The notes beneath the pieces are model-generated. The model was given only the letters and a program-made list of their open reading frames with translations, searched no databases and was not told the DNA's origin. From a virus, in IMG/VR virus record IMGVR_UViG_3300017709_000034, positions 1 through 24,237 of that record: a DNA stretch of 24,237 nt; one strand, 5' to 3'. Every line of letters begins with the position of its first letter. The stretch's first letter is position 1. This document shows positions 16,904-21,092 of this stretch, in pieces. The translations under genes and the position numbers were made by a program.

Positions 16904-17491
16904 ATGAGCAAGAACTTATTCGACAAGTTAGAGATAGAAGCATTCCGTGCAGGTATTACTCCACGGACTGAAGAAAGCCGTGCATGGTTTCGTAGACGTG
17001 CTTCACAAATGCGTAACGTTAATAGAGAAGGCTTAATGCAAGCCGAACAGGTTAGGTTGACCAGAGATAGTGTTGTGGGTAACATGTATATGTTCTTCTA
17101 CGACCCTAAGCATAAAGACACCTTACCTTACTATGACCAATTCCCTCTGATATTTGTTCTTGGTGATGCTCCAGGTGGTTTTATGGGTTTAAACCTTCAT
17201 TACCTACCCCCACTATTACGTGCCAAACTATTAAGTGCTTTGTTAGATCTAGCAAACAATGATAAGTACAACAACAGAACTAAACTAATGTTATCTTATG
17301 ATTTGATTAAAGGATCTGCTAAATATAAAGCATTCAAACCTACACTCAAGCATTATTTGACAGCACACGTCAAAACTCGTTTGGCTAAAGTACCAGCCGC
17401 AGAGTGGGAGATTGCTACATTCTTACCAATGGCACAGTGGAAGAAAGCATCACAATCTCAAGTGTATAGACAGTCAAGGAAAATGATCTAA
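16904..17491 (+). CDS. Conserved T4-like phage protein, possibly DNA end protector gp2
   Basis: The protein has 195 residues and is soluble and basic. The N-terminus (KNLFDKLEIEAFRAGITPRTEESRAWFRRR) is helical and Arg-rich. The centre has MYMFFYDPKHKDTLPYYDQFPLI followed by GGFMGLNLHYLPPLLRAKLL. The end has YKAFKPTLKHYLTAHVKTRL and WEIATFLPMAQWKKAS. I recognise this as a conserved protein of T4-like marine phages that is, from memory, often labelled DNA end protector gp2. T4 gene 2 neighbours gene 4, which fits, but T4 gp2 is longer (274) and I cannot confirm residue similarity. If it is gp2, it would bind the packaged DNA ends and guard them from host RecBCD. No Shine-Dalgarno sequence precedes the ATG, while a late promoter ends five bases before it. 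Its stop overlaps the next start (TAATG). Confidence 0.6.
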   Translation: MSKNLFDKLEIEAFRAGITPRTEESRAWFRRRASQMRNVNREGLMQAEQVRLTRDSVVGNMYMFFYDPKHKDTLPYYDQFPLIFVLGDAPGGFMGLNLHYLPPLLRAKLLSALLDLANNDKYNNRTKLMLSYDLIKGSAKYKAFKPTLKHYLTAHVKTRLAKVPAAEWEIATFLPMAQWKKASQSQVYRQSRKMI

Positions 17492-18138
17492 TGTTTCAAG
17501 TAGATGAAATGAAGGCAATGATCTCTAAAAAAGGTGGATTTGCACTAGCAAACCAGTTTAGAGTAATCCTTCCTGCACCTAATACCATATCAAGAGTTAC
17601 AGACCGAAGAAGCAATGCTGAAGATATTCGTGATCTAAACTTGATGTGTAAAGATGTAAACCTACCAGGCAGACAGATCCTAACACAAGAACGTGTTATC
17701 GGTATGGCAAACCGTAAAGTTGCTTACTCATATGCATACAAAGACGTGAATATGACGTTTCATCTTATGAACGATTATAGTGCAAAGAGATACTTTGAAA
17801 ACTGGCACAATCAGATAATCGATTTTGAAAGAAAAGAGCTAAGATATAAGAACACTTATACTCATGATATTGAAATTATACAATACAGGAAAGGTGCGGA
17901 GACCGCAGATATTTCCAAAAAGACTAACATTGGTTTTGACATCAATGACAATTTAAGATTTGATCTTGATATAACTAAGACAAGAAAGGGTGCCATAACA
18001 CCTGCTGTTGAAGTGTACAAGTGTAAATTGATAAACGCATTCCCAACTACTATGAATGCTTTACAACTAAACAATGAGCAAAATGGTTTGCTTGAAATTA
18101 ATGTCCAATTTTCTTATGATGATTGGGTATCTACCTAA
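17491..18138 (+). CDS. gp19-fold tail tube protein, likely gp54-like tube initiator
   Basis: The protein has 215 residues with the tail-tube pattern seen in T4 gp19: ALANQFRVILPAP, then LMCKDVNLPGRQILTQE (T4 TFQCKATALPAGIVEKI), MANRKVAYSYAYKDVNMTFHLMNDYSAKRYFENWHNQI (T4 MNRKINVAGDRTFDDWTVTVMNDEAHDARQKFVDWQ), YTHDIEIIQY, and the final strand pair KLINAFPTTMNALQLNNEQNGLLEINVQFSYDDW (T4 GLWPTNVGELQLDWDSNNEIQTFEVTLALDYW). The main tube gene normally lies with the sheath gene gp18 in the head-gene region. This copy sits between gp4 and gp26, so the tube initiator gp54, which has the same fold, is the more likely role. That choice rests on position. A good AAGGA Shine-Dalgarno sequence lies inside the previous gene. 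Confidence 0.7.
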   Translation: MFQVDEMKAMISKKGGFALANQFRVILPAPNTISRVTDRRSNAEDIRDLNLMCKDVNLPGRQILTQERVIGMANRKVAYSYAYKDVNMTFHLMNDYSAKRYFENWHNQIIDFERKELRYKNTYTHDIEIIQYRKGAETADISKKTNIGFDINDNLRFDLDITKTRKGAITPAVEVYKCKLINAFPTTMNALQLNNEQNGLLEINVQFSYDDWVST

Positions 18139-18152
18139 ACAATGGAGTTATT

Positions 18153-18863
18153 ATGGCTTTACCTAAACTAAACGACCAACCCAAATATGAATTGACTATC
18201 CCATCCAGTGGTGTTGTTATCAGAATTAGACCATTCTTGGTTAAGGAAGAAAAGGTTCTTCTAATTGCCATGGAGAGTCAAGATCAGTCGCAGATTCTGT
18301 CAGCTATAGTTGACACTCTAGAAGCATGTGTACTAGGAGAAATCGATACCAATGCGCTAACAACGTTTGACATCGAATACCTATTCACTAAGTTAAGAGC
18401 TAAATCAGTCGGTGAGACTGCTAAGATCGAATTGGAATGTACGCACTGTAAGGCTAAAAACCCTGTGGTTATTCCAATGGATGATGTGGGTGTTAAGGGT
18501 GATATGACATCTCAAAAGGGAACTGTTGACATTGGCAGTGGAGTTACACTTGAATTGCAGTGGCCTCGTTATAAAACTATTGCATCAGATGCTACTGTTA
18601 TTGAGGGTGGAGCAGAAGCAACATTCTCTATGATCAAGCATTGTATCTCTTACGTATGTACTGATGATGATAGGATTAAGTTCTCTGAGGAAAGTGCAAA
18701 GGAAAAGGATGAATTCGTGATGTCCATGACTTCTGATAACTTCTCATCCATTAAAGACTTTATTGAAGGAATGCCTACACTGAAGCATGACATTGATTTT
18801 GATTGTATTGAGTGTGGTAAACATAACGAGTATACACTGGAAGGTATGCAAGATTTTTTCTAG
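18153..18863 (+). CDS. 26: Baseplate hub / tail assembly chaperone gp26 (T4_baseplate family)
   Basis: The protein has 236 residues; T4 gp26 has 208. The N-terminus (PKLNDQPKYELTIPSSGVVIRIRPFLVKEEKVLLIAMES) is the signature of the T4 gp26/gp51-type family. Two CxxC pairs (Cys96/99 in CTHC and Cys218/221 in CIEC) suggest one zinc ribbon. In T4 these proteins are needed for assembling the baseplate hub around the tape measure. The ATG at 18153 is chosen over a TTG 30 bases upstream because GGAG at 18144-18147 is ideally spaced and the upstream codons overlap the previous gene. The last codons are GAT TTT TTC TAG, which form a perfect -1 slippery site at the stop. A downstream -1 frame continues into the tape-measure start (separate entry). 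Confidence 0.85.
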   Translation: MALPKLNDQPKYELTIPSSGVVIRIRPFLVKEEKVLLIAMESQDQSQILSAIVDTLEACVLGEIDTNALTTFDIEYLFTKLRAKSVGETAKIELECTHCKAKNPVVIPMDDVGVKGDMTSQKGTVDIGSGVTLELQWPRYKTIASDATVIEGGAEATFSMIKHCISYVCTDDDRIKFSEESAKEKDEFVMSMTSDNFSSIKDFIEGMPTLKHDIDFDCIECGKHNEYTLEGMQDFF

Positions 18864-19048
18864 TATGTCTATCTCATAATAGTATACTTAATTACTATAA
18901 GAACAACTTTGCACTGATGCAACATCACAATTATAGTTTGAATGAGATAGACGGATTAATACCATGGGAGAAGGAAGTGTACATTACTATGCTTGCTGAA
19001 CACATAAAAGAACAAGAAGAAGAACGAAAGAGACAAAGAAATGGCTGA
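18153..19048 (+). CDS. Predicted gp26 -1 frameshift product (tail chaperone long form)
   Basis: Slipping back one base on T TTT TTC (18854-18860) makes the ribosome read CTA GTA TGT at 18860 instead of the TAG stop. It then continues for 62 codons to the TGA at 19046-19048, giving a product of about 298 residues. The extension includes LNYYKNNFALMQHHNYSLNEIDGLIPWEKEVYITMLAEHIKEQ and a charged EEERKRQ tail, a coherent helical protein. It has no proper start of its own: the only in-frame ATG (18917) lacks a Shine-Dalgarno sequence and lies within the conserved-looking part. The stop overlaps the tape-measure ATG by eight bases. The layout equals the G/GT chaperone pair before the tape measure in lambda and many other tailed phages. 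It may be the counterpart of the accessory hub-assembly proteins of T4 (for example gp51), which I cannot verify. Confidence 0.75.
18854..18952 (+). promoter_or_regulatory. Programmed -1 frameshift signal: slippery heptamer plus stem
   Basis: TTTTTTC at 18854-18860 is in phase as T TTT TTC, which fits the X XXY YYZ rule, and is followed at once by TAG. After six bases, GTCTATCTCAT (18867-18877) has its exact reverse complement ATGAGATAGAC at 18942-18952. This allows an 11-bp stem (12 with a G-U pair) around a 64-base loop. A spacing of six bases is typical for -1 stimulators. The large loop could fold further or form a pseudoknot, which I have not worked out. Confidence 0.75.
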
Positions 19049-20888
19049 TACCACTCTCAATGATGTAGTTAAAACCCTACAGAAAGGTCAAGCACGTGAC
19101 GAGCGAATGGCTAAGAACTTTGAAGCATGGTTCAAAGCTCAAGAACGTGCACGTCTTGATGCTCTAGAAGAGAAGAGAGAACGTAAAAAAGCTAAACCTG
19201 AGTCTGTAGAACGTGCAAGAAGAAAAGATACTGGTAAAGATAATACTAGTCTGGGTTTCTTGGCATTGGGTAGACTTGTAGGACCTTTAGGTGCATTCAT
19301 CGCTGGATTTACTGCATTAGGTGCGGCACTGGCAGGGTTCCGTGGATGGGAACTAAAAGCAATTAAATCATTGGATAAGTTTGGTGGCTTCAGTAAGGCA
19401 TTAGATCAAAAGTTCATTAACCTAAGAGCCAAGTTCTTCAATAAGCTAGGTCTAGATCCTAAGTTAGGAAAAGCTGTTGACGGTAAAAGAAGTCTTGCAA
19501 CACCATTAACTACCCAATTAAATAATAGGATGAATACATGGTTCTCTAATCTACAACAGAAGTATTTTAAGATCTTTGGTCTTGGTGTTGATGGTAAACC
19601 TATATCCGTACAGGGAGATGATGGAAAGATCAAACCTAAAAGTATTATGGCTAGGCTTGGTGTTAGAATAAACAGTATATTTAGACCCATAACCAAAATG
19701 TCTAGTGCTATTGGTGCTTGGTTTAGCGGAGCAGGAGCTAAGGTTGTAAACTTTGGTAAGAATTTCCTAGGTAAAGGTGGGGCATTTGTCAAACTCATGG
19801 GCAAGCTCTTATGGCCTATTGGTATTCTAATATCTGCATTTGATGGTATGAAAGCATACATGGCATCTGATGAAGCAACCACATTTGGTAAATTTGGTGA
19901 TGGTATCGCTGGAATGGTTGGATCATTCATTGGTGCACCATTCGACTTAATCAAAAGCGCATTCCTTTGGATCATAAGAAAGATTACTGGTGCAGAAGTT
20001 GATGCAGATGGTAACTACGATACATCAACAACAAGTGGAAAGATACTACAAGCCGCTAAGGACTTCTCGTTTACAGAGATGATAACTAAAATGGTTAAAT
20101 CACCTTTCACTGCAATTCTAAATGTCGTGGATTGGGTGAAGTCTAAGTTTGCTATATTCAGTGATGAAGGAGAAGGTGGTGGATTTGGTGGTATGATGAA
20201 ATCTATTCTGGATGATGCACTATCAGCCCTTGGCTATAAAAAGGGAATGAGTGTATTAGAGATCATTGGTCAAATCGTTACGGCACCTGCAACTGCTGGT
20301 ATTAAATGGATTGCAAGTAAGTTTGGATTTGAAGTACCCGAAAACTTTACACTAAACCCTGTCACCATAATAAAACAATATGGTAACGATGCTTTTAAAT
20401 GGATTGCAAGTAAGTTTGGATTTGAAATCACTGATGACGATTTTAGCGTCACTGGTTGGATTAAGAACAAATGGGATGAGGCTGTTGTTAAGATGCAGAA
20501 TGCATTCTTAGATCTGGGACTATGGATGTCTATGATCGGACCTAAACTAAAGGTTATGGCAGTAGAAGCAATTAAATCTTACACTGGTAACTGGATCATT
20601 GATGATTCTACTCTAGAAGAATTACAGGCAGACGTTGAGCGAAGAGAAAATCAAGCACAGATGCTCAGAGATCAGTTAGCGATCCAACAAAATAAAAACA
20701 ATGCAGAAGATATTACGCCAGAAACTGCGCCCGAACCAGCACCAGTAGTTGTGATAGATGGATCGTCAGGTGATACTGATGCTTCATCAACAACAATTAA
20801 CCAACTTAGGATACCGATGAACAATGGTGGGGATGCATTTAGAGATGAACATGGACTAGTAAGAATACCTATTAGCCCATTCAACTAA
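19041..20888 (+). CDS. 29: Tail tape measure protein (gp29 counterpart)
   Basis: The protein has 615 residues; T4 gp29 has 590, so a tail near T4 length (~0.1 micrometre) is expected at about 1.5 angstrom per residue. The N-terminus (~5-65) is a highly charged helix (FEAWFKAQERARLDALEEKRERKKAK). Hydrophobic segments follow at about 71-100 (LGFLALGRLVGPLGAFIAGF), 250-265 (LLWPIGILISAF) and 288-312 (MVGSFIGAPFDLIKSAFLWII), as in tape measures that enter the host membrane. KWIASKFGFE occurs twice near residues 423 and 454. Residues ~525-560 form a coiled coil followed by a Pro/Thr/Ser linker. Its place right after the chaperone frameshift unit is the strongest evidence for the role, since overall sequence similarity to gp29 is not visible. 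Its ATG overlaps the -1 frame stop by eight bases. Confidence 0.8.
   Translation: MADTTLNDVVKTLQKGQARDERMAKNFEAWFKAQERARLDALEEKRERKKAKPESVERARRKDTGKDNTSLGFLALGRLVGPLGAFIAGFTALGAALAGFRGWELKAIKSLDKFGGFSKALDQKFINLRAKFFNKLGLDPKLGKAVDGKRSLATPLTTQLNNRMNTWFSNLQQKYFKIFGLGVDGKPISVQGDDGKIKPKSIMARLGVRINSIFRPITKMSSAIGAWFSGAGAKVVNFGKNFLGKGGAFVKLMGKLLWPIGILISAFDGMKAYMASDEATTFGKFGDGIAGMVGSFIGAPFDLIKSAFLWIIRKITGAEVDADGNYDTSTTSGKILQAAKDFSFTEMITKMVKSPFTAILNVVDWVKSKFAIFSDEGEGGGFGGMMKSILDDALSALGYKKGMSVLEIIGQIVTAPATAGIKWIASKFGFEVPENFTLNPVTIIKQYGNDAFKWIASKFGFEITDDDFSVTGWIKNKWDEAVVKMQNAFLDLGLWMSMIGPKLKVMAVEAIKSYTGNWIIDDSTLEELQADVERRENQAQMLRDQLAIQQNKNNAEDITPETAPEPAPVVVIDGSSGDTDASSTTINQLRIPMNNGGDAFRDEHGLVRIPISPFN
20302..20426 (+). 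repeat. 32-base direct repeat inside the tape-measure gene
   Basis: The bases at 20302-20333 recur exactly at 20395-20426, a period of 93 bases (31 codons). Both copies encode KWIASKFGFE in frame, each followed by an acidic/Thr stretch. The perfect nucleotide identity suggests a recent internal duplication or continuing recombination between copies, which would change tape length by 31 residues. Confidence 0.85.
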
Positions 20889-20897
20889 GGAAATGAT

Positions 20898-21092
20898 ATG
20901 TATGTGATGATAACGATATTAATGTTGGGAAATAACATGTCTGTACAGGCACCTAACATAGTGTTTAATGATATGGCCTCTTGCATAAAAGCAAAGACCT
21001 TACAGAATAAGATCCTTGATTTAACTAAACCTGATGCTGATGCTAGACATGTAACTAATTGTTTTAAGATTACACCAGATATACAAGCGTAA
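20898..21092 (+). CDS. Small exported-looking protein with two cysteines, unknown function
   Basis: The protein has 64 residues and starts nine bases after the tape measure, with a strong TAAGGA Shine-Dalgarno sequence seven bases upstream. The first ~18 residues (MYVMITILMLGNNMSVQA) are hydrophobic and end in a plausible signal-peptidase site (VQA-P), though no basic residue starts the segment. The remainder is short and polar, with Cys29 and Cys55 that could form a disulphide after export. I do not recognise a family. It is the last gene of the rightward late block and is followed directly by the terminator. Roles in the host envelope during infection are possible but unsupported. Confidence 0.65.
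   Translation: MYVMITILMLGNNMSVQAPNIVFNDMASCIKAKTLQNKILDLTKPDADARHVTNCFKITPDIQA

Follow-up and report, generated by a model that had tools for sequence, protein, structure and literature searches.

A proposed tail assembly chaperone pair, very probably made by -1 frameshifting, at the gp26 locus of a T4-like marine phage

We are highly confident in reading the gp26 locus of the window (the whole stretch of viral DNA that was analysed, 24,237 nucleotides) as one from which a T4-like marine phage makes two tail assembly chaperones, short and long, by -1 frameshifting. Judged from the sequence, the frameshift itself is very probably real. The initial annotation had proposed that a programmed -1 frameshift fuses gp26 to a hidden frame, and this idea is now supported by the conservation of the slippery heptamer together with the frame, by low dN/dS values and by the constraint found ahead of the first ATG of the frame. 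The data show the conserved site, the open frame, selection on the protein, homology to T4 gp26/gp51 and RNA folding in excess; that the slip is translational, how often it happens and that the products act as chaperones is what we infer. Systems of this kind are already known, and the locus adds a well-supported example. The features are as follows.

17491-18138, + strand: tail tube gene upstream of gp26 (phrog_45 'tail tube', E 2.9e-32)
18153-18863, + strand: gp26-type gene, putative short chaperone form (TAC-N), 236 aa, stop TAG 18861-18863; PF12322, phrog_150
18854-18860, + strand: slippery heptamer T TTT TTC, in phase
18860-19048, + strand: -1 frame extension of 62 codons (TAC-C; phrog_634; 'gp51' in some cyanophage records), joined to gp26 by the proposed shift
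18867-18877, + strand: possible stimulatory stem, 5' arm GTCTATCTCAT, six bases past the heptamer
18917-18919, + strand: earliest ATG in the -1 frame, a competing candidate start; constraint reaches upstream of it
18942-18952, + strand: stem 3' arm, exact 11-base complement of GTCTATCTCAT
19041-20888, + strand: presumed tape measure gene, 615 aa, called by position and overlap only; weak phrog_1047 match, E 0.0024

The gp26-type gene lies directly downstream of the tail tube gene, with the presumed tape measure gene, so named by position only, as its downstream neighbour. It matches PF12322 with an E value of 7.5e-61 (206 bits vs a cut-off of 24.5) and phrog_150 with an E value of 1.1e-60. Its 3' end reads GAT TTT TTC TAG, and the initial annotation had correctly placed T TTT TTC in phase and abutting the TAG. 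It was equally right about the six-base spacer, the following arm with its exact 11-base complement, and a start-less 62-codon -1 frame that closes on the ATG of the next gene; the frame ends at TGA 19046-19048 and overlaps ATG 19041. Across the 7,817 codon positions in the 23 window genes taken from the ORF list, the gp26 end is the single place with an in-phase TTTTTTN, and the chance of a 62-codon open frame at the local base composition is about 0.009. Among 50,697 phage records, gp26 matches 912, compared with none for the presumed tape measure gene beside it, whose protein (19041-20888) gave no tblastn match at E 0.001. A small 64-aa frame, without a PHROG match at E 1, follows that gene at 20898-21092.

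For the comparison with relatives we used 200 loci, made up of 182 viral contigs found with the gp26 query only, the window and 17 named phages, which came from the gp26 search (1), the -1 frame search (5) and a fused query (11). Five of the 205 loci with a gp26-type match were left out: the window itself (L035), two cut loci (L031 and L101), and T4 and Aeromonas 31.2 (L032 and L036), which were treated apart. Since the two alignment scans delivered the best 80 of 592 and the best 80 of 595 confirmed relatives, the loci are near relatives and not a random sample. An in-phase T TTT TTN stands before the gp26 stop in 197 of the 200 usable loci: none of the 182 viral contigs found via gp26 alone lacks it, nor does the window, and 14 of the 17 named phages have it. 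Of these 197 loci, 195 continue into a homologous -1 frame, and the other two contigs end first. Heptamer and open homologous -1 frame are conserved together, in 197 and 195 of 200 loci, a coupling that the initial annotation had proposed to check. In all 27 complete relatives of the first scan the heptamer sits directly at the stop. Its last base is C in 121, T in 59, A in 14 and G in 3 of the 197 loci, and it is kept even at high local GC (Delftia PhiW-14, 0.55; Stenotrophomonas BUCT608, 0.53).

The three loci that lack the heptamer belong to two Ackermannviridae and to Vibrio phage K361, and these lineages come nearest to a conserved -1 frame with freely varying site codons. The Ackermannviridae (L041, L048, L205, L211, L215, L218-L226) keep the homologous -1 extension without T TTT TTN. 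At the gp26 stop all 14 listed loci read [A/G]TT TTC AT[T/C] followed by TAA or TGA, and some have a -1 frame ATG right at the stop, others ATT, ATC or ATA. The K361 locus carries a TAATG (L044:2164-2168) that sets a start in the -1 frame, and is likely a re-initiation variant of the same chaperone pair. A scan of the viral contigs with the K361 protein found no relative.

Downstream of the heptamer the RNA is predicted to fold more stably than expected. In the window, the 100 bases past the heptamer reach -24.3 kcal/mol, corresponding to a z of -4.1 against dinucleotide shuffles, of which 1 in 200 was as stable; the same 100 bases of the near relative L019 give -24.7 kcal/mol and a z of -4.5. 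The broader tests were made on representatives; the set of 169 was taken only from loci that possess the heptamer (3 of the 200 are without it). With dinucleotide shuffling, the 95 bases downstream have a mean z of -1.71, compared with -0.57 and -0.28 in two windows inside gp26. Synonymous recoding gave a z of -2.17 at the site (SEM 0.12, n 165), with four gp26 control windows lying at -0.39 to -0.62.

The window's own stem is a narrower matter. In 8 distinct rows, window included, 96.6% of the cells pair, falling to 51% or less when the arms are slid; these rows derive from nine sequences chosen by eye from 15 after the stem had been seen, and more distant sequences without the stem were omitted. 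Eight of the 11 pairs never vary; the variation seen amounts to one compensatory change, a single G-U at each of two pairs and a break of one pair in three rows. Covariation was discarded as support for this stem, with 114 of 500 shuffles scoring as well. The covariation is thin, and the RNA argument rests on the broader folding tests. Near relatives clearly show the exact 11-bp stem, which is not seen in L027, L029 or L001. The expected conservation of the stem therefore held in part: the exact helix is only partly kept, and stronger-than-expected folding at the site is general. We also tried a Shine-Dalgarno-like stimulator 8-9 bases upstream and dropped it as too weak to claim (strict motifs in 130 of 169 loci vs 113 expected from synonymous recoding; broad motifs in 159 vs 154 expected).

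The folding bears on a different source of the long form, in which it is RNA polymerase that slips at the run of T, and an mRNA carrying an extra base encodes the long form. The site is indeed a homopolymer, with 7 or 8 consecutive T in 50 of 167 representatives; the other 117, however, have six T only, which is shorter than the runs usually required for transcriptional slippage, and the excess of downstream RNA structure would better suit ribosomes. We regard polymerase slippage as very improbable, and keep to a -1 shift by the ribosome.

Selection on the -1 frame is strong. Comparing the window with the near relatives L008, L012 and L019 gave a dN/dS of 0.031, 0.153 and 0.043, dS being saturated for more distant partners; the span of 0.03-0.15 in these three is far from the value near 1 that the initial annotation had named as speaking against its proposal. 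The initial annotation had likewise considered that the frame might be read only from its own start at 18917, and here the region before this ATG turned out to be constrained as well. In a first set of 114 pairs, pN/pS is 0.20 before and 0.15 after the ATG position. A loose count, which finds no start at or just upstream of the first codons of the extension in 150 of 196 loci, underestimates how often a start is available. When all of the first four -1 codons are searched, an ATG, GTG or TTG that might serve as a start is present in 84 of 167 representatives (the window is not one of them), and we consequently repeated the test on start-less loci only, defined as those with none of the three codons in the first 18 -1 codons (69 loci, 46 representatives, window included). 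For 31 nearest-neighbour pairs of these, the stretch ahead of the internal ATG position has a pN/pS of 0.242 and the one behind it 0.231, compared with 1.36 when the former is taken in the 0 frame. Relaxing the identity limit (35 pairs) gives 0.265, 0.241 and 1.37, respectively. In the start-less loci, constraint ahead of the ATG position is thus as strong as behind it, something that no internal start can account for; this stretch behaves as translated in the -1 frame although it has no standard start.

These numbers speak against the -1 frame being a small gene of its own (gp51), whether translated from ATG 18917 or re-initiated once the gp26 stop has been reached. Such a gene would fit the records in which the frame has a separate hub-assembly feature (27 of 60 among the matches listed), which in S-CAM3, Mosig and syn9, for example, begins inside it. 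It would also fit the TAATG or TGATG -1 starts of nt-1, phiM19, Cr30, RHph_N34, BUCT608 and PhiW-14, and the start codons within the first four -1 codons of the 84 representatives above. Against it, the window has no ATG, GTG or TTG before 18917 in the -1 frame, the 18 codons before this position are constrained like the remainder in the 31 start-less pairs, and a Shine-Dalgarno-like 4-mer precedes a possible start within the first 26 codons in 11 of 167 representatives. An internal start as the sole source of the extension is thereby rejected for the start-less loci, and we give the separate gene marginally less credence still than polymerase slippage; lineages with early -1 starts may make both products.

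The -1 frame corresponds to a catalogued family, 'baseplate hub assembly catalyst' (phrog_634, E 1.4e-26), and has a weak match to the C-terminal end of phrog_150 (E 0.0012); Pfam holds no family for the extension at E 1. By tblastn it matches 576 phage records at E up to 10, the best listed at 2e-14, and a separate hub-assembly (catalyst) feature is annotated in 27 of 60 among the matches listed. The S-H9-1 record has no feature over the frame. For lineages of this sort, what records list as a 'baseplate hub assembly catalyst' of its own very probably represents the C-terminal portion of a chaperone made by frameshifting, which corrects a recurring marine phage annotation.

That the heptamer is a by-product of a conserved Phe-Phe and its neighbour, with the complementarity arising by chance, is the least credible explanation of all: G231, F235 and F236 are invariant in an 11-protein alignment, so that some T richness is expected, but the NNT TTT codon choice at the site is jointly very improbable given each gene's usage (log10 -70 over the 169 non-redundant heptamer loci, to be taken as an index only because the loci share ancestry), other Phe-Phe/Leu(TTR) pairs in the same genes read T TTT TTN in 14 of 236 cases, and T4-type gp26 genes, which need no slip, have T TTT TTN in none of 11 3' ends (48 bases), where they read GAGTTCTTTGAG or similar; this codon use, together with the rarity of the motif in the window, led us to reject chance or amino-acid constraint as its source.

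T4 itself helps to understand the pair. By hhalign, each value referring to a single pair, T4-type gp51 can be aligned to almost all of the 298-residue fusion (241 columns, pair probability 99.7), T4-type gp26 with the short form (99.8), and T4-type gp26 and gp51 with each other (99.3). The gp51 alignment held 12 proteins, L235 among them, and gp26 was not recovered for L229. A model of the extension gives T4 gp51 a score of 21 bits and T4 gp26 one below zero, its E-values referring to a set of four proteins. T4 gp51 thus resembles nearly the whole fusion and T4 gp26 the short form, whereas, unlike here, 26 and 51 are two genes on opposite strands and no heptamer stands at the gp26 end. That T4 has separate genes, as noted initially, holds insofar as there are two of them; they do, however, correspond to one protein in its short and its fused form. 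This offers T4 gp26 and gp51 specific candidate functions, open to experiment, as the short and the long tail chaperone. Among the Straboviridae, nt-1 and S13 have the heptamer. The otherwise T4-like locus of the viral contig L235 has a gp51 that reads as a truncated 120-residue frame, owing to a sequencing error or to a real break. Vladimirov and colleagues reportedly name T4 genes 26 and 51 in their abstract, along with a frameshift conserved across further groups of T4-like phages.

The fold points in the same direction. For the N-terminal domain of an AlphaFold2 model of gp26 (pLDDT 84.6), the best solved matches are 3FGX (Z 8.2), YqbN 3KLU (7.5), which we take to be a member of the tail assembly chaperone class, and the HK97 chaperone 2OB9 (7.5). 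A Vibrio PICI protein follows as the fourth match at Z 5.3, and the next row is at 3.0. Residues 1-86 align with 85 of the 107 residues of 2OB9 at an rmsd of 3.6 and a Z of 7.5, a range (under 8) in which, by the aligner's own caution, a score may reflect just a common arrangement. The Foldseek match to the HK97 chaperone is weak (E 0.34), and the gp26 profile found no match among PDB sequences at E 1. The model is thus supportive rather than conclusive of an HK97-type chaperone fold in the short form: gp26 residues 1-88 would share the fold of 2OB9 and 3KLU (Z 7.5 each), and unlike these, gp26 carries an extra part at about residues 89-236. With the T4 homology and the HK97-like fold, the two products are best read as a TAC-N/TAC-NC pair of the G/GT type.

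Tail assembly chaperones of T4-like phages were identified by Vladimirov, Gautam and Davidson (2022, Virology 566:9-15), as that work is represented in later papers. It is cited for some T4-like phages having a short gene and a longer fusion gene (PMC10885494) and for poly-T slip signals in the TAC-N genes of T4-like phages (PMC12846349). The locus described here resembles this TAC-N/TAC-NC system, as cited there, in its poly-T slip site at the end of the short T4-like gene. The initial annotation had expected a long form of gp26 to offer a new view of hub assembly, a claim we do not uphold, as frameshifted chaperones had, by these citations, already been reported in T4-like phages. A passage of a 2016 review (PMC5009743) calls the G-T frameshift widely conserved in long-tailed phages 'except T4' and states that in lambda neither the G nor the GT product is present in the virion. 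The lambda G/GT and P2 tail frameshifts, as far as these sources describe them, share with our locus, as we read it, a -1 shift close to where the short gene ends, ahead of the tape measure gene (here a presumed one). In phage 0305phi8-36, by the account in PMC2147016, the two genes gp143/gp144 stand in for G/GT without a frameshift, a two-gene form like that of T4 and unlike the present locus, from which it also differs in lineage.

The following course of events would account for the locus. Ribosomes that stop at TAG 18861 would release a short form of 236 residues (TAC-N, 'gp26'). A smaller share of ribosomes, whose Phe tRNAs occupy TTT and TTC, would move back by one base on T TTT TTC, probably aided by the RNA structure six bases downstream; having bypassed the stop they would add 62 residues to give the 298-residue long form (TAC-NC). 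By analogy to lambda G/GT, short and long forms may coat the tape measure protein, with the extra domain recruiting tube subunits, and both would later be lost.

On the history of the system we are evenly divided between belief and doubt as regards the following joint proposal. The -1 frameshift with a selected RNA structure would be ancestral in the T4-like group, and the T4-/Aeromonas-type lineage would have lost the slip site after duplication into 26 and 51, other Straboviridae (nt-1, S13) keeping it. The 'gp51 catalyst' of many records would usually be just the frameshift tail of gp26, and the Ackermannviridae would reach the same frame from the non-canonical [A/G]TT TTC ATY TRA (14 of 14 loci listed). 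That the slip site was lost and not gained is the direction of change that we infer. The short form itself varies in length: in Pelagibacter phage Mosig (L003) and three more loci the gp26 stop lies 24-27 bases past the heptamer instead of 0-6, which gives the short form a longer tail.
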